Counted from the first letter of the stretch, positions 2,601 through 28,121 are shown. The stretch is 64,000 nt of DNA from Armatimonadota bacterium (GCA_026003195.1 BPGU01000004.1:320317-384316), one strand, 5' to 3'. Notes: generated by a model from the sequence alone, not told the origin. Numbers and translations are program-made.

Positions 2601-3393
2601 CCGCTGTCAAGCCCACGCCGTTTACCCGGCGCAGCTTCAGCGGGTTGAGGTCGTCGGTAGGGATAAGAATCTTCACGCGGAACATGCCGTTGGAGAAGAG
2701 GTCTTCGTATTGCCACACCCCCGCTACCTTGTCCACGTCGGCGGAGGGTCCCGATACCTGCGCACCACCGATGTAGGCGTTCTCGCCCAACGTCGCCATC
2801 GGGATAACCTTCGTGAACTCCTCGGCATCCTTGCGCAGGCTTAGCTTGTTAATCACCTCGTTCAGCTGGTTGCCCGCGTTTTTGACAGCGACCGCCACCG
2901 CCGCGGCGGCAATCACCTCTTTGCCTCCCAAGCCCTTCGGATGGGTGACTTTGAAACCGCCTTCCAGCGCGACGTCAATCAGCGCGGAGATGCCCACCTT
3001 CTCTACCCGGCGCAGCCCCGTCAGGCTATCGCTGGGCACCAGCACCTTGATGCGGAACCTGTCCAGCGACTCTTCTATCTGGAACACCGCCTGCACCTTC
3101 TGGACCGCTTCTTTGGGTCCCATCACCTGTGCCGCGCCGACGTAGCCTTTATCGCCGATGCTGAGAATCGGCACCACTTTCGTCGCCTGATTCACGGGCA
3201 CATTCTGGCGAAGGGTGATTTCGTTGATGAACTTGTCCAGCGCCTTCGCGTTTTGCTTCACCAGATAGCCGATGCCGATGAGCTTCACACCGCCGCGCAG
3301 AATCTTGCCCAGGTCCTGGGCACTGCTCCACTCCGACACGCTGGCGGTCAGCAGAAAGACCATCGCTGTGGCCAGCACGAGTACACGTTTCAT
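2575..3393 (-). CDS. Secreted protein with two copies of a ~110-residue domain
   Basis: 272 residues starting with a signal peptide (MKRVLVLATAMVFLLTASVSEWSSAQ). The mature part is an internal duplication. Both halves share a helix with (D)KFINEITLR or NEVINKLSLR, then TKVVPILSIGDKGYVGAAQV or TKVIPMATLGENAYIGGAQV, then RFRIKVLVPSDSL or MFRVKILIPTDDL, and finally a GI/GL-x-ALIDV or TAVIDM ending. I recognise no named family; a periplasmic or cell-surface role is inferred from the signal peptide only. The start is supported by AGGAGGTG upstream. It lies 14 nt after the sucD stop, so it may be read with sucCD. Confidence 0.8.
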   Translation of the reverse strand: MKRVLVLATAMVFLLTASVSEWSSAQDLGKILRGGVKLIGIGYLVKQNAKALDKFINEITLRQNVPVNQATKVVPILSIGDKGYVGAAQVMGPKEAVQKVQAVFQIEESLDRFRIKVLVPSDSLTGLRRVEKVGISALIDVALEGGFKVTHPKGLGGKEVIAAAAVAVAVKNAGNQLNEVINKLSLRKDAEEFTKVIPMATLGENAYIGGAQVSGPSADVDKVAGVWQYEDLFSNGMFRVKILIPTDDLNPLKLRRVNGVGLTAVIDMRVMS

Positions 3394-3407
3394 CGGGACA
3401 CCTCCTG

Positions 3408-4283
3408 TCAGGTTCGGTGCGCCAGTGCCTGCTTCACCAGTTCCGGTATCTCGTAGAGCGCGTCCGCCACCGGTACGCCTGCCGCACGCAGGGCGTCCAC
3501 TTTCGCTTGTGGCGTTCCGGTGCGCCCGGAGATGATCGCTCCCGCGTGACCCATTCGCTTGCCCGGCGGTGCAGTGCGTCCGGAGATAAAGCCAACGACC
3601 GGCTTGCGCATCGTGCGGATGTACTCCGCCGCGATTTCCTCATCCGAGCCTCCGATTTCACCTACCAGCACCACCGCCTGCGTGTCCGGGTCCTCTTCAA
3701 ACAGCGGAAGCAGGTCTACAAAGGTGCTCCCCAGCACCGGGTCACCGCCTATTCCTATACAGGTAGACTGTCCCAAGCCCGCTTTGGTTAGCAGGTCCAC
3801 GATTTCGTAGGTGAGCGTGCCACTGCGTGAGATCAGCCCCACCGGTCCGGGAGTGAAGATGTTGCCCGGCATGATACCGATTTTGCACTGCCCGGCAGTC
3901 ATCATCCCGGGGCAGTTGGGACCGATGAGGCGCACTCCCCTCTGGCGAACCAGTGCCACCGTTTTGACCATATCCTGCACCGGGATGCCTTCCGTAATGC
4001 ACACGATGAGGCGAACGCCCGCGTCCGCCGCCTCCAGCACTGCATCCGCCGCGAAAGGAGCAGGCACGAAAATCACCGAGGCGTCCGCGCCTGTTGCCTG
4101 CACCGCCTGGGGGACGGTGTCAAAAACCGGCACACCCAGCACCTCTTGACCGCCCTTACCGGGTGTCACCCCCGCCACAATCCGCGTGCCGTAGTCCAGC
4201 ATCTGCCGAGTGTGGAACTCGCCTTCGCGTCCGGTGATGCCCTGCACCAGCACGCGCGTGTCCTTGTCAATCAGCACCGCCAT
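3408..4283 (-). CDS. sucD: Succinate-CoA ligase, alpha subunit
   Basis: 291 residues, the usual SucD length (E. coli 289). The N-terminal Rossmann CoA-binding part carries [13 protein letters not shown]. The active-site phosphohistidine is H246 in [10 protein letters not shown], the same number as in E. coli. With SucC it converts succinyl-CoA and ADP or GDP to succinate and ATP or GTP in the TCA cycle. The start ATG overlaps the sucC stop by one base (TGATG), showing translational coupling. Confidence 0.98.
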
Positions 4284-5431
4284 CAGCGCGTCACCTCCAC
4301 GATTTTACGTGCCGCCTCCTGCATGGTGACGGCAGGAATGAGCTCTGTACCTTGCAGCAGCGCAAGCCCCTCTTCAGCTCGTGTGCCCGCCAGGCGGATG
4401 ACGATGGGCACCTTCACCTGCAGGCTGCGGATGCCTTCCAGAATGCCTTTGGCGACCTCATCGCCGCGCGTGATGCCTCCGAACACATTGAACAGTACGC
4501 CCTTCACGTTGGGGTCCATCAGCACAATCTCCAGCGCGTTGCGCACAAGGTCTGCCTTCGCGCCGCCGCCGATGTCCAGAAAGTTGGCGGGCTTGCCTCC
4601 GGCACGGCTCACCTCGTCCAGCGTGCTCATTACCAGTCCCGCGCCGTTGCCGATGATGCCAATGTCACCGCCTAACCGCACATACTGGATGCCCCGCCGA
4701 TGCGCCTCCGCCTCGATGGGGTCTTCCTCGCTCTCCTCTTTGTATTCGCTGAACTCCGGGTGGCGGAAGAGGGCGTTGTCGTCGATGTTCAGTTTGGCGT
4801 CGGCGGCGAGGCACTGCCCCTCGGTGGTCAGCACGAAGGGGTTGATTTCCGCCAGGGAGGCGTCACTGCCCACGTACGCTTTGTACAGCGCCAGCAGGAA
4901 CTTTGTCGCGGTCGGAACCGCCTCGCGAGCGATGCCCGCATGGTACAGTGCCTGCCGCGCCTGATAGGGCATCAGTCCCTGCCAGGGTTCCACCCACACC
5001 TTGACGATGGCTTCGGGATGCTCTTCCGCTACCTGCTCGATGTCCATCCCGCCCATTGCGCTCACCATCACCACGTCGCGTTGCCTGGCGCGGTCTAAAG
5101 TGATGCCCAGATAGTACTCCTGTGCGATAGAGATGGCTTCCTCCACCAGCACCTTGTGCACCGGAACACCCTGTGGCGCCTGCGGGGTGACCAGCCTCGA
5201 GCCGATGAGCGCACGGGCGTGCTCCTCCGCCTGTTCGGGTGTGTCTGCCAGACGGATACCGCCCGCCTTGCCTCGCCCGCCTGCGTGCACCTGCGCCTTC
5301 ACCACCACGCGCCCGCCCAGCTCCTGTGCAATCGCGCGCGCCTCTTCAGGGGTAGACGCCACACGCCCCCGAGGGACCGTTACCCCATAGCGCACGAGCA
5401 CCTCTTTCGCCTGATATTCGTGAATCTTCAA
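4283..5431 (-). CDS. sucC: Succinate-CoA ligase [ADP-forming], beta subunit
   Basis: 382 residues with an N-terminal ATP-grasp domain ([11 protein letters not shown]..., [16 protein letters not shown]) and a C-terminal CoA-ligase domain ([30 protein letters not shown]). It binds nucleotide and works with SucD. The start is TTG at 5431, supported by AAGGAGG nine bases upstream and by alignment of the first residues with the family's MNLHEYQAK start; no ATG or GTG fits. It is the first gene of sucC-sucD. Confidence 0.97.
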
Positions 5432-24054: not shown

Positions 24055-24130
24055 TGGCGCGCCCGGAGGGACTTGAACCCCCGACCTTGAGGTCCGCAAC
24101 CTCACGCTCTATCCACTGAGCTACGGGCGC
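24055..24130 (-). tRNA. tRNA-Arg (anticodon GCG), CCA encoded
   Basis: Reading leftward from 24130: acceptor GCGCCCG pairs with CGGGCGC, D arm GCTCAGTGGATAGAGC, anticodon stem TGAGG/CCTCA with loop TTGCGGA (anticodon GCG, decoding CGC), T arm with GGTTCAAGTCC. The discriminator G and the 3' CCA are encoded (24055-24058). Confidence 0.95.
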
Positions 24131-24174: not shown

Positions 24175-25368
24175 TTAACACCCACCCAGTTTGCGTTTCG
24201 GTTTTTCTGGCTCGGGGGGTGCCAGATCTTCTTCGCGAATCAGTTCCGGCAGTTTCTCGCGAGCGCGTTTGCGAAAACGATAGGTGTACTCCTCGTACAT
24301 GTTCCTGGGTGGACCAGGCGGCTGGAAGTTCAGAATGTCCTGACGGAACTTCTCCAGCCCACCTTCCAGAATGCGAATACGCTGGAAGCCGAGCTCTCGA
24401 GCGATGACCGCCATCCGTCGCTCGGTCATTTCGTCGTTCGCCACAAAGACGTTGATTTTACCCCGCACACGTAGCAGCCGGGAAGGCTCCTGCTCGAACA
24501 GATTGTCCACCGTCAAGGGGTACGACTTGGGTAGCTTCTCTTTGGAAATCTCTTCGCGCGGACGGAAGTCTATCACCTGTATCTGCTCATCGCTGTCGTC
24601 CAGCAAACGGAAGGCAAACTCGTCTACGGTCATCACTTCCAGCGGGTAGGAGCGCACAAACTGCTCGTCCTGCACCATCTGCAACAGGCTTGCCTTGCGG
24701 TCTGTGAAGGAGAATGCAGAAAGTGCCAGCAATATGCCGAGCGCCACTGCACCTGCTCGCGCCAGGTTCCAGCGTGGCAGAACGGGCTGGACACCTTTGA
24801 CCCTGCGCTCCACGACCGAAGCGATGCCGAAAGCGATCAGGGCGAATATCACCATGAGAAAGGCGAACAGCCCTGCCGGGATGCCCAGCGTTTCGTAAAT
24901 ACGCGGAGTTCCCAGATAGGCAGCCTTGTACAGCCCTTCCAACCAGGGGTACGCTTCCGCGAAAAGAAACACTCCTACCAGCGCGCCCACGATAAACACC
25001 ATCGCATCGCGCTTACCGGTGGAGGCAGCGCAGAAACTGGTGCCCGGGCAATAGCCTCCTACCACGAAGCCCAGCCCCATGATGATCCCACCGACTATCG
25101 CCGACCACAGGTAGGTAGGGTTGATGTACACCTGGCTCAGATCCAGCAAGCCGAAGTGGTTCAGCGCCATCACACCTACCATTGCCACCACGCCTGCGGT
25201 GAAAAACACACGCAACACCGTAAAGTCGTAGCCGTAGAACAGTCCCACCAGTCGCCGGGAAGAACCAAACCCTGCCTGTTCCAGAATTGCCCCAAAGGCA
25301 ATGCCCACGAAGAAGGCGAGGATGTAGTTCAGGTTTTCACTGATGAGGTTCGGTACTAAAGGTCCCAT
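24175..25368 (-). CDS. YeeE/YedE-type sulfur-compound transporter half with C-terminal rhodanese-like domain
   Basis: 397 residues. About six to seven membrane segments in residues 10-245, with the conserved GGYCPGTSFCAAS of the YeeE/YedE (TsuA) family, whose cysteines pass thiosulfate across the membrane. After residue about 265 comes a rhodanese fold (VMTVDEFAFRLLDDSDEQIQVIDFRPREE ... LGFQRIRILEGGLEKF). The active loop reads VFVANDEMTERR, without the catalytic Cys, so this domain is probably a sulfur-compound or partner-binding module rather than a sulfurtransferase. The tail ends in a charged KPKRKLGGC. Last gene of a four-gene operon. Confidence 0.88.
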   Translation of the reverse strand: MGPLVPNLISENLNYILAFFVGIAFGAILEQAGFGSSRRLVGLFYGYDFTVLRVFFTAGVVAMVGVMALNHFGLLDLSQVYINPTYLWSAIVGGIIMGLGFVVGGYCPGTSFCAASTGKRDAMVFIVGALVGVFLFAEAYPWLEGLYKAAYLGTPRIYETLGIPAGLFAFLMVIFALIAFGIASVVERRVKGVQPVLPRWNLARAGAVALGILLALSAFSFTDRKASLLQMVQDEQFVRSYPLEVMTVDEFAFRLLDDSDEQIQVIDFRPREEISKEKLPKSYPLTVDNLFEQEPSRLLRVRGKINVFVANDEMTERRMAVIARELGFQRIRILEGGLEKFRQDILNFQPPGPPRNMYEEYTYRFRKRAREKLPELIREEDLAPPEPEKPKRKLGGC

Positions 25369-25378
25369 CTTCGCCCTC

Positions 25379-25897
25379 CTAGGTCCACAGCTTGCGGAAG
25401 AAATAGGCGAAGGCGTATGCCCCCGCGAAAATAGCCACCATGGTCAGGATACCGCCGGTTGCCATCACCGCCATCCCGCTGAGCGCGGCACCGCTGGTGC
25501 AACCTCTCCCCAGCTGCGAACCGATACCCCATAGGATGCCCCCCACAAAGGCGGCTATCCAACGGGTGCGTGAGGCTACACGCGGACCTGCTTCGGTCAT
25601 CAGTCTGAGTCTCCCCGCCGCCAGCGCGGACAGGAAAGCTCCTACTGCCACGCCGATGACCTCGAACACGAGCCAGTTCTTCAAAGGGTTGCCTTCAGGA
25701 TGTTCCTGAACGTATTCCGCGTAGAATTTGGCTTTCTGAGCATGTGCTGGTGCCACAGCCTGTACTCCGGCAACAGTGAAGCTCTTGATGGCTCCGCTCG
25801 CGCCCAGCCCTCGTCCGGTGATGTAAATGGTGGCAATCAGCAACAGTCCCAGTAAAGTGCCCGCCACGTACGGGTTCATGTACTTGCTTTCACTCAT
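25379..25897 (-). CDS. YeeE/YedE-type transporter, second half protein
   Basis: 172 residues, four or five membrane segments. It carries SQLGRGCTSGAALSG, the N-terminal cysteine motif of YeeE/YedE proteins. The partner motif (GYCPGT) is on the next gene, so the transporter is split between two proteins. A non-membrane loop (AHAQKAKFYAEYVQEHPEGNP) lies between the first two segments. Its ATG overlaps the cytochrome b stop by 4 nt, and the next gene follows after 10 nt. Confidence 0.88.
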   Translation of the reverse strand: MSESKYMNPYVAGTLLGLLLIATIYITGRGLGASGAIKSFTVAGVQAVAPAHAQKAKFYAEYVQEHPEGNPLKNWLVFEVIGVAVGAFLSALAAGRLRLMTEAGPRVASRTRWIAAFVGGILWGIGSQLGRGCTSGAALSGMAVMATGGILTMVAIFAGAYAFAYFFRKLWT

Positions 25898-26541
25898 GAC
25901 TGTGGTACCTCCTGAGCGATAGGTGTCGGCGTCGGCTCCTCGACCTCCTCGTAGCCGGTAATCATGGCACGCAGGTTCGAAAGCACTGTCTCTCCGGTGG
26001 TGGTCATGTACACGTGCAGTATCACGAACGCCACCATCAGAAACGCGCCCAGGGTGTGCGCAATAGCGATGAACCTCAGCGACTCGATGTTGATCGCCTC
26101 GATGCCATAGCGCGTCGGATATCGGTAGAACATGTACAGCAAGCCGGAAACCACCAGCAGAGGAAAGAGCACCACCTTCAGCAGAAAGTAGGTGATCTTC
26201 TGCAGGGGATTGAGCTTGCTGAGCACGGTCTTTTTGGTGGGATGCGGCGCGTTGCGGAAGATGCCGAATACATAGTACTCCAGCTGCGCGCGCATATTCT
26301 CCAGCGTAGGTACATATTGCCTCCACTGCCCCGTGCTGAAATGCCAGAAGATGGCAAACACGATGAGCGCAATCAGCAGGTATGCAGCGATGTTGTGGTA
26401 TCTCACCGCCTCCTCGAAGCCGAAGAAGTGCAACGAGCCGTGTATCTCAAAGCCGGTGAAGGCGAGGAAGAGCACCAGTATCGCTTGCATCCAGTGCCAG
26501 AACCGCTCAAAGCCGGTGTATATCTGAACGCGCTTTTTCAT
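25894..26541 (-). CDS. Membrane b-type cytochrome (FDH/hydrogenase gamma-like)
   Basis: 215 residues with four membrane segments. Candidate haem-ligand histidines are in FERFWHWMQ, VRYHNIAAYLL, AIFWHFS and AHTLGAFLMVAFVILHVYM, the layout of quinone-reactive cytochrome b subunits of formate dehydrogenases, hydrogenases and thiosulfate reductases. It would pass electrons between the quinone pool and the octaheme protein encoded just upstream. Both ends overlap neighbours by 4 nt (ATGA). The start at 26541 is chosen on that overlap and on MKKRVQIYTGFERFWHW. Confidence 0.88.
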   Translation of the reverse strand: MKKRVQIYTGFERFWHWMQAILVLFLAFTGFEIHGSLHFFGFEEAVRYHNIAAYLLIALIVFAIFWHFSTGQWRQYVPTLENMRAQLEYYVFGIFRNAPHPTKKTVLSKLNPLQKITYFLLKVVLFPLLVVSGLLYMFYRYPTRYGIEAINIESLRFIAIAHTLGAFLMVAFVILHVYMTTTGETVLSNLRAMITGYEEVEEPTPTPIAQEVPQS

Positions 26542-28121
26542 GACGAACCCTCCCGACGACGTTTCAGAGATACGGCAACACGCAAGCCTCCATGCGCCAG
26601 CACGCCCACCGCAGTGAGTATCACCAGTGCTTTGCCCGCCGTATCCACCAGAGGCAGATAATCCCTGCCCGGAATATAGAAATCCTTCAGGTTGGCAATG
26701 CGGCTTCCCTGTCGTGTGTGGCATTCGCTACAACGCACCGCTTTCTCCTTCGGCGAGACCATATGGTTGAGGGGCCAGTAAGCGATGGTCTCCACAAAAC
26801 CCAGCTGCCCACTGAAAGGTAAACCGCGCTCTTTCATGCCCACCTCGATAGCGCGTATGCACTCGAAATCTTTCCAGAACGCCCCCTCGCCCGGCTTGGG
26901 TGCAAACAGTTTGGGCGCAACCAGAATGTTGTTCACCGGGTCGTAGCACTGGTTGGTGCGCATGACCTTCACCGGGAAGATTTTGGCATCCGGGTCTGCG
27001 TAGGAGCCGTTGAACCTGTTCAGTTCCACCGGCTTCGAGGCATCCGCTATTTTGTCTCCCAGCAGGTAGTGCGTGGCAGTGCCGTTGAACCAGACGTAAT
27101 CCGGTTTCAGGTTCTTCCCCCAGCGGAAGGTGCCTTTCTCGGACAGATAGATGATGTTGCCCTCCGCATCGGTTTCCCTGTAGGGCTTGCCATCTCGTAG
27201 TTTGCCTGCAGTGGACCAGTCCCAGTACAGTTTGGTCGGGTTCACTTTGGCGTAAATGGGGATATGGCAGGTCTGGCAGGCTACCTTGAGCGTGTGCTCG
27301 TTCAAGATTTCTTTCTCGTGTGGCGTGCTGGTATGACACTGCTCGCAGGTCACCCGATTGCGGTTCATGGAAGAGAGCGAGTAGAGCTGTCCCCGAATCT
27401 GGTGTTTCTCCGTGAGGTGGCAGTCCACGCACTGCATATTGGCTCCGTCGACTGCCATGTGCACGTCCACGTCGCGCGACGGCTCAAACAGGGCTTCCTC
27501 CAGGTCGCCGTGCTTGACGTTATTGCCGCCCCCTCCGTAGAAGTGGCAGACACCACAGTTGCTGCGCTGAGGTCGCCCTACGCTGGAAGCCACCAGCGCA
27601 AGGTCCACGTCGGGGCTGGGCGCACCACCCGCGTTAGATGCCTTCGCGTAGGTGCCGGTGCCGTCATGGCACACGAGGCAGTCGATGTTGCGCGGGTCGT
27701 TGAAATCAAAAGTTTTCACCGAGGTCATGCCGAAGCCGACGTGGCATTTCGCGCAGGCGAGCTCGTTTCCTTGCGCGGCGAGGCAGAAGTTGTTCACCGC
27801 ATTTCTCTTACCCAGATAGACCACGCCCCGCCCCTGGATGTACTCCTCGCGCTCCCAGTTCCAGTGGTTGGAGTTCATCACCTCGATGTGTCGCCCATTG
27901 TGACAGCTGATGCAAGCTTCTGTGACTTCCTGAGGTTTCTTGAAATCCTTCTGTAGCTGGGGGAACTTGCTGTGGTCCACAGGGGACTCATGGCTTTGGG
28001 AATATCGCGCTCGGAGCTGCGAGAGAGGGTCGGGGAGAACCTCCCTGGGAGTGAGCGATGCGACCACTGCCACCACAACCACCAGTGCAATTGTTGCCAA
28101 AATCGGTATTGCCTGTTTCAT
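26538..28121 (-). CDS. Octaheme c-type cytochrome of the tetrathionate reductase family
   Basis: 527 residues with exactly eight CXXCH sites: C70, C123, C148, C189, C231, C259, C282 and C464. There is an N-terminal signal anchor (AIPILATIALVVVVAVVAS) and a C-terminal membrane helix near 490-512, so it is held on the outer face of the membrane. The arrangement of seven sites in the first half and one near the end, with a long haem-free region between, resembles octaheme tetrathionate reductase. These proteins reduce tetrathionate and can also act on nitrite and hydroxylamine in vitro; the physiological substrate here is inferred as a sulfur oxyanion from the YeeE neighbours. First gene of the operon. 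Confidence 0.88.
   Translation of the reverse strand: MKQAIPILATIALVVVVAVVASLTPREVLPDPLSQLRARYSQSHESPVDHSKFPQLQKDFKKPQEVTEACISCHNGRHIEVMNSNHWNWEREEYIQGRGVVYLGKRNAVNNFCLAAQGNELACAKCHVGFGMTSVKTFDFNDPRNIDCLVCHDGTGTYAKASNAGGAPSPDVDLALVASSVGRPQRSNCGVCHFYGGGGNNVKHGDLEEALFEPSRDVDVHMAVDGANMQCVDCHLTEKHQIRGQLYSLSSMNRNRVTCEQCHTSTPHEKEILNEHTLKVACQTCHIPIYAKVNPTKLYWDWSTAGKLRDGKPYRETDAEGNIIYLSEKGTFRWGKNLKPDYVWFNGTATHYLLGDKIADASKPVELNRFNGSYADPDAKIFPVKVMRTNQCYDPVNNILVAPKLFAPKPGEGAFWKDFECIRAIEVGMKERGLPFSGQLGFVETIAYWPLNHMVSPKEKAVRCSECHTRQGSRIANLKDFYIPGRDYLPLVDTAGKALVILTAVGVLAHGGLRVAVSLKRRREGSS

Follow-up and report, generated by a model that had tools for sequence, protein, structure and literature searches.

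An octaheme cytochrome operon of an Armatimonadota bacterium with a split YeeE/YedE transporter and a candidate Gly-Gly-Cys sulfur-carrying arm

A four-gene operon on the minus strand of the 64-kb window (the whole stretch of DNA that was analysed), at positions 24175-28121, encodes an octaheme tetrathionate reductase family cytochrome (OTR), a cytochrome b and a YeeE/YedE transporter in two halves, of which the second continues into a rhodanese-like domain and a Gly-Gly-Cys (GGC) tail. With a probability of about one half, this set is read here as a periplasmic reductase of sulfur oxyanions that draws on quinol and is coupled to the YeeE channel through a swinging arm like that of SoxY. The preliminary description of this DNA overlooked the rhodanese-like domain and its GGC tail, a part that likely alters the mechanism, and did not mention the N-terminal signal/anchor and the C-terminal hydrophobic helix of the OTR. 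The features of the operon are as follows.

26538..28121, minus strand: otr, octaheme tetrathionate reductase family cytochrome, 527 aa (TIGR04315, E 5.7e-177; PDB 1sp3, E 3.4e-125)
otr residues 5-23, minus strand: signal/anchor helix (hydropathy)
otr residues 499-517, about 26571-26627, minus strand: C-terminal hydrophobic helix (hydropathy)
27783..27785, minus strand: otr Cys113, counterpart of Shewanella Cys64 (1sp3 alignment; 79/79 in the clade)
27513..27515, minus strand: otr Lys203, invariant counterpart of Shewanella Lys153 (1sp3 alignment; clade alignment)
25894..26541, minus strand: cytochrome b (PF01292), 215 aa (PF01292, E 4.5e-29)
25379..25897, minus strand: first YeeE/YedE half, 172 aa (PF04143, E 6e-22)
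codon 25499-25501, minus strand: invariant Cys133 of the first YeeE half (Cys in 75/75)
24175..25368, minus strand: second YeeE/YedE half with rhodanese-like domain and GGC tail, 397 aa (PF04143, E 3.4e-15; PF00581, E 3.7e-07)
codon 25048-25050, minus strand: Cys107 of the second YeeE half (invariant in 66 homologues)
24331..24639, minus strand: rhodanese-like domain, residues about 244-346, catalytic Cys replaced (PF00581; Foldseek)
24178..24186, minus strand: C-terminal Gly-Gly-Cys, proposed tip of a sulfur-carrying arm (GGC in 66/66 complete homologues)

The layout is exactly as first claimed, with four genes on one strand and three junctions. The otr gene (28121-26538) and the cytochrome b gene (26541-25894) share a 4-nt ATGA overlap, as do the latter and the first YeeE half (25897-25379), and a gap of 10 nt (25369-25378) precedes the second half (25368-24175). 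A tRNA-Arg gene lies directly downstream on the same strand (24055-24130). The source genome has 4.58 Mb and holds a single copy of otr and cytochrome b of this type; the named relatives nearest to this OTR in a similarity search were a Chthonomonadia MAG and Bacterium HR16, both of which we take to be Armatimonadota. The operon linkage proposed at the outset was borne out by a survey of octaheme cytochrome neighbourhoods: relatives in several phyla share the order otr-cytochrome b-YeeE-YeeE in 70 of 80 cases, a figure that describes the operon's own clade only, since the relatives were found through similarity to this OTR. A few of these loci have an inserted gene or a last gene cut by the contig end. 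The conservation of gene order is far above chance expectation.

The family of the octaheme cytochrome was correctly recognised from the beginning. The protein scores 589 bits against TIGR04315 (cut-off 375), covering model positions 1-440 of 440, and the next best model reaches 41 bits. Like the Shewanella oneidensis OTR (1sp3, TIGR04315), which it matches over the full length, it has eight CxxCH heme motifs. The window protein has no CxxCK motif, and its Asn110, Cys113 and Lys203 align with Shewanella Asn61, Cys64 and Lys153 and are all invariant in the clade. Together with Asp150, these residues presumably form the active site of the Shewanella structure of 2004, in which Lys153 is taken to be the heme 2 ligand. 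The Shewanella Asp150 is replaced by Asn in the window clade (77 of 79 members), and the same position holds Asp in 11 of the 17 OTRs that have cytochrome b as their sole partner. The window operon also differs from the Shewanella system in that its OTR has a membrane helix near the C-terminus and is accompanied by a cytochrome b of its own and by the YeeE-rhodanese partner. This helix tracks cytochrome b, being present in 95 of 96 OTRs with that partner (17/17 plus 78/79) and in 1 of 25 with neither cytochrome b nor YeeE. OTR-like domains were also seen within much larger proteins of ~1080-1170 aa with 13-14 CxxCH motifs in the Acidobacteriota set (L155-L163), with neither YeeE nor cytochrome b in the vicinity. 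The selenoproteins listed in PMC13188914 include one octaheme protein of TIGR04315 and one YeeE/YedE protein.

A grouping of the cytochrome with nitrite or hydroxylamine enzymes, named beforehand as a result that would speak against the sulfur assignment, did not emerge. It is scarcely probable that the enzyme acts chiefly on nitrite or hydroxylamine and that its sulfur neighbours are incidental. The Shewanella OTR does reduce nitrite and hydroxylamine in vitro as well as tetrathionate (PMC4484225), which counts against the swinging-arm reading, but the window protein has no CxxCK motif and no NrfA, ONR or HAO model came near its cut-off, grounds on which this identity was rejected, and the linkage to sulfur-family genes is conserved.

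The second gene was held to encode a membrane quinone-type cytochrome b, and this stands: the product matches PF01292 with 101.9 bits (cut-off 30.1), and His16, His49, His162 and His176 are retained in 79-80 of 80 relatives. The closest model is that of the thiosulfate reductase cytochrome b, with a score below that model's cut-off. The protein is likely a quinol dehydrogenase subunit.

Both transporter halves match PF04143, at 79 and 56.8 bits against a gathering score of 27, in agreement with the split YeeE/YedE first described. It is the C-terminal half of TsuA that the first half resembles (E 2.8e-12). Relative to TsuA the halves thus stand in reverse order, whereas they run colinearly with the YedE/FdhT model; because the halves are repeats, their assignment to particular halves of TsuA or FdhT is not firm. 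With YeeE/TsuA and YeeD/TsuB, the window proteins share the Sulf_transp fold family, conserved cysteines and a cysteine-bearing partner domain beside the channel. They differ in that the transporter is split in two genes, whose scores of 46.7 and 19.8 bits fall far short of the 400 required by the TsuA equivalog model, and in that the partner is rhodanese-like with a GGC tail predicted to lie outside, whereas theirs is a cytoplasmic TusA-like protein. TusA is the usual acceptor family for YeeE-delivered thiosulfate. A search for it gave no match in the window genome and was positive in 11 of 14 control genomes, and TusA was thus discarded as the YeeE partner there. PmpA and PmpB form a split YeeE that likewise consists of two half-size proteins with one key cysteine each (PMC11582611); by comparison, the window halves are larger (172 and about 220 aa), carry a rhodanese fusion and share an operon with otr. 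A YedE-type transporter together with sulfur-carrier proteins is also found in the YTD cluster (YedE, TusA, DsrE) of sulfur disproportionators (PMC13047784), from which the window operon differs by a carrier predicted to be periplasmic, a respiratory cytochrome in the operon and no TusA match in the genome.

The product of the last gene terminates in -KRKLGGC. Among 66 complete homologues, GGC is the exact C-terminus in 60, lies 1-3 residues before it in the other six and is missing in none; the linker that leads to it from the last conserved Arg varies between 27 and 34 residues, and the last eleven residues of the structure model are of low confidence. A flexible C-terminal Gly-Gly-Cys, as in the swinging arm of SoxY, is therefore present. 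The domain that bears it is not considered an active rhodanese sulfurtransferase, as the active-site loop cysteine is lost: the position holds Ala in the window and Ala, Gly or Ser in nearly all homologues (one of 67 has Cys). In the structure model, the rhodanese domain is of good quality and the membrane half is weak (pLDDT mostly 45-84); a Foldseek search with it matched rhodaneses only, so the model is uninformative on the YeeE fold. In the first locus set, 80 of 2742 open reading frames have a terminal GGC, and all 80 match this rhodanese family. In the Acidobacteriota set the count was 5 of 2567, with three YeeE-rhodanese fusions and two unrelated frames.

SoxY carries its sulfur on a GGC swinging arm, and SoxYZ and the window protein have in common the idea of a periplasmic carrier with such an arm (PMC11237559), but the window carrier has a rhodanese-like fold and is tethered to a transporter. 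It is not a SoxY by family, since it matches PF04143 and PF00581 and not PF13501; a SoxY search of the window genome gave no match, with the control for the same search also silent. By analogy, the GGC tail looks like a tethered arm that would hand sulfur between the OTR and the YeeE transporter. In a search of mostly open-access literature, no paper described rhodaneses that bear a GGC motif or a swinging arm, and none that mentions octaheme cytochromes together with YeeE/YedE described this operon and tail.

The GGC tail is predicted, with good support, to be on the periplasmic side, where it would probably stand beside the OTR. In the second YeeE half, mean Lys+Arg runs from the N-terminus through the loops as 0.0, 2.0, 0.06, 1.0, 1.4 and 3.8; this alternation, with six helices, places the N-terminus outside, and therefore the rhodanese domain outside too. 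Independent support for a periplasmic tail comes from basal relatives with separate, lipoprotein-like rhodaneses. In the basal loci L070, L074, L078 and L079, a separate rhodanese with a GGC end lies directly behind otr-cytochrome b, and its N-terminus resembles a lipobox or forms a signal anchor. In L071, L072 and L080 the product encoded between cytochrome b and YeeE is a double rhodanese that is lipobox-like at its start and ends in GGC. In L074 and L078, moreover, the rhodanese that belongs to the YeeE half is not fused to it but has its own gene, and begins with a membrane anchor. Several of the separate GGC rhodaneses of basal relatives retain the active-site loop cysteine. At L081, a single open frame (2632-4347) spans cytochrome b and a GGC-tailed double rhodanese.

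These free GGC rhodaneses bear on a simpler account, in line with the preliminary description, in which the OTR acts as a reductase on free tetrathionate, thiosulfate reaches YeeE unbound, by diffusion, for import and the rhodanese with its GGC serves assembly or stability only. That account draws on the reduction of tetrathionate by OTR in vitro (PMC4484225), on the 36-fold induction of an acidobacterial otr by tetrathionate (PMC8528874) and on the import of thiosulfate by YeeE proteins (PMC11073785). However, it leaves unexplained both an invariant cysteine tail behind a variable linker and the free GGC rhodaneses of the basal relatives, and it is regarded as rather unlikely.

For the swinging-arm reading, we infer the substrate, the direction, the formation of a conjugate, its hand-over and the role of the arm in the window operon as follows. 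Electrons from quinol would pass through cytochrome b to the membrane-anchored octaheme OTR, a periplasmic reductase of tetrathionate or of a closely related compound such as a thiosulfonate or a different polythionate. A single channel would be built from both YeeE/YedE halves, and the rhodanese-like domain, its own active cysteine lost, would present a flexible GGC-tipped arm at the periplasmic side. The GGC cysteine may then bind the sulfur species covalently and shuttle it between the OTR and the channel mouth, from which the channel may relay it to the cytoplasm via its own conserved cysteines. On the cytoplasmic side, YeeE is thought to pass thiosulfate on to a cysteine in a partner protein (PMC11073785), and the GGC would be the outer-side equivalent of that cysteine. 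The swinging-arm reading also draws on the response of the acidobacterial otr to tetrathionate (PMC8528874) and on the divergent soxY-soxZ pair that adjoins otr in lucinid symbionts (PMC11237559).

Menaquinone has a potential below that of the tetrathionate/thiosulfate couple. Because this couple, at +198 mV (PMC8528874), lies above menaquinone, the reductive direction is favoured, and the formation of tetrathionate with menaquinone as acceptor would be uphill. The same value weighs against an oxidative scheme, in which the OTR would oxidise thiosulfate or carrier-bound sulfur and send electrons to quinone while YeeE supplies or removes sulfur. Although the tail is Sox-like and a divergent soxY-soxZ pair adjoins otr in sulfur oxidisers, namely lucinid symbionts (PMC11237559), this scheme appears distinctly unlikely. 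Besides the weak model of the membrane half, further observations count against the reductive swinging-arm reading itself. Caldithrix abyssi has an OTR, and its predicted sulfur or tetrathionate respiration gave no growth (PMC5317091), and the divergent locus L146 pairs OTR and YeeE with a rhodanese that ends in -YCTAH, with neither GGC nor cytochrome b.

In an OTR tree (n=121), all GGC-bearing loci fall into one clade nested among cytochrome b-paired OTRs, with a support of 0.98 without the four basal loci and 0.64 with them; the members in which no GGC was detected are all cut by a contig end. The GGC rhodanese thus appears, from this phylogeny, to have arisen a single time, in OTRs that already had cytochrome b as a partner. 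Of 151 genomes in the window's phylum, nine encode a protein closely homologous to the YeeE-rhodanese fusion, and seven of the nine have an otr above cut-off. In the other two, L098 begins at a contig edge within cytochrome b, and L104 (921-2691) has the YeeE-rhodanese-GGC gene after the first otr-like codons joined to the middle of the first YeeE half. L104 was rejected as a YeeE-rhodanese locus without otr, since it looks like the operon missing the part from early otr to the middle of the first YeeE half, by a deletion or an assembly join.

The wider sample led to the rejection of a universal OTR-YeeE linkage. Acidobacteriota-labelled genomes have an OTR above cut-off in 27 of 297 cases, and the majority of the loci examined comprise otr and cytochrome b only, or neither partner; where otr-cytochrome b-YeeE occurs, the GGC end is present. 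The Pseudomonadota sample consisted of five plasmid records only, and in one of these (L094, Paracoccus ferrooxidans plasmid pFER4) otr-cytochrome b lies directly behind a suf/cysteine desulfurase cluster with no YeeE. Because most OTRs outside the clade have no YeeE or GGC carrier nearby, the arm is not required for OTR as such.

Regulatory genes recur in these neighbourhoods. A MerR-type regulator with a cysteine-rich C-terminal part lies near and upstream of otr in L006, L031 and 23 other loci, and MarR- or ArsR-like genes take its place in others. The main functional rival builds on this: the YeeE-rhodanese would supply a regulator of otr in the cytoplasm with sulfane sulfur or thiosulfate, as SoxT1B, which works in signal transduction, does for SoxR (PMC11582611). 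MerR-, MarR- or ArsR-like genes are indeed found near otr in about 38 of 80 loci, but the type of regulator varies by locus, none adjoins the window operon, and the transporter and the enzyme are co-transcribed and highly conserved, which makes such a signalling role very unlikely.

The physiological substrate of OTR has been unclear since the Shewanella structure, and an invariant carrier cysteine beside the enzyme offers a direct, single-residue handle on it. A bolder and tentative proposal, doubtful as it is, holds that the natural substrate of the clade's OTR might be a sulfur group on the tethered GGC cysteine and not free tetrathionate, that respiration and import might form one channelled machine, and that the SoxY beside otr in symbionts might represent the same principle, independently reached. 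If the swinging-arm reading is true, a respiratory enzyme and a membrane transporter would be linked by a covalent sulfur carrier, in a layout found in several bacterial phyla.
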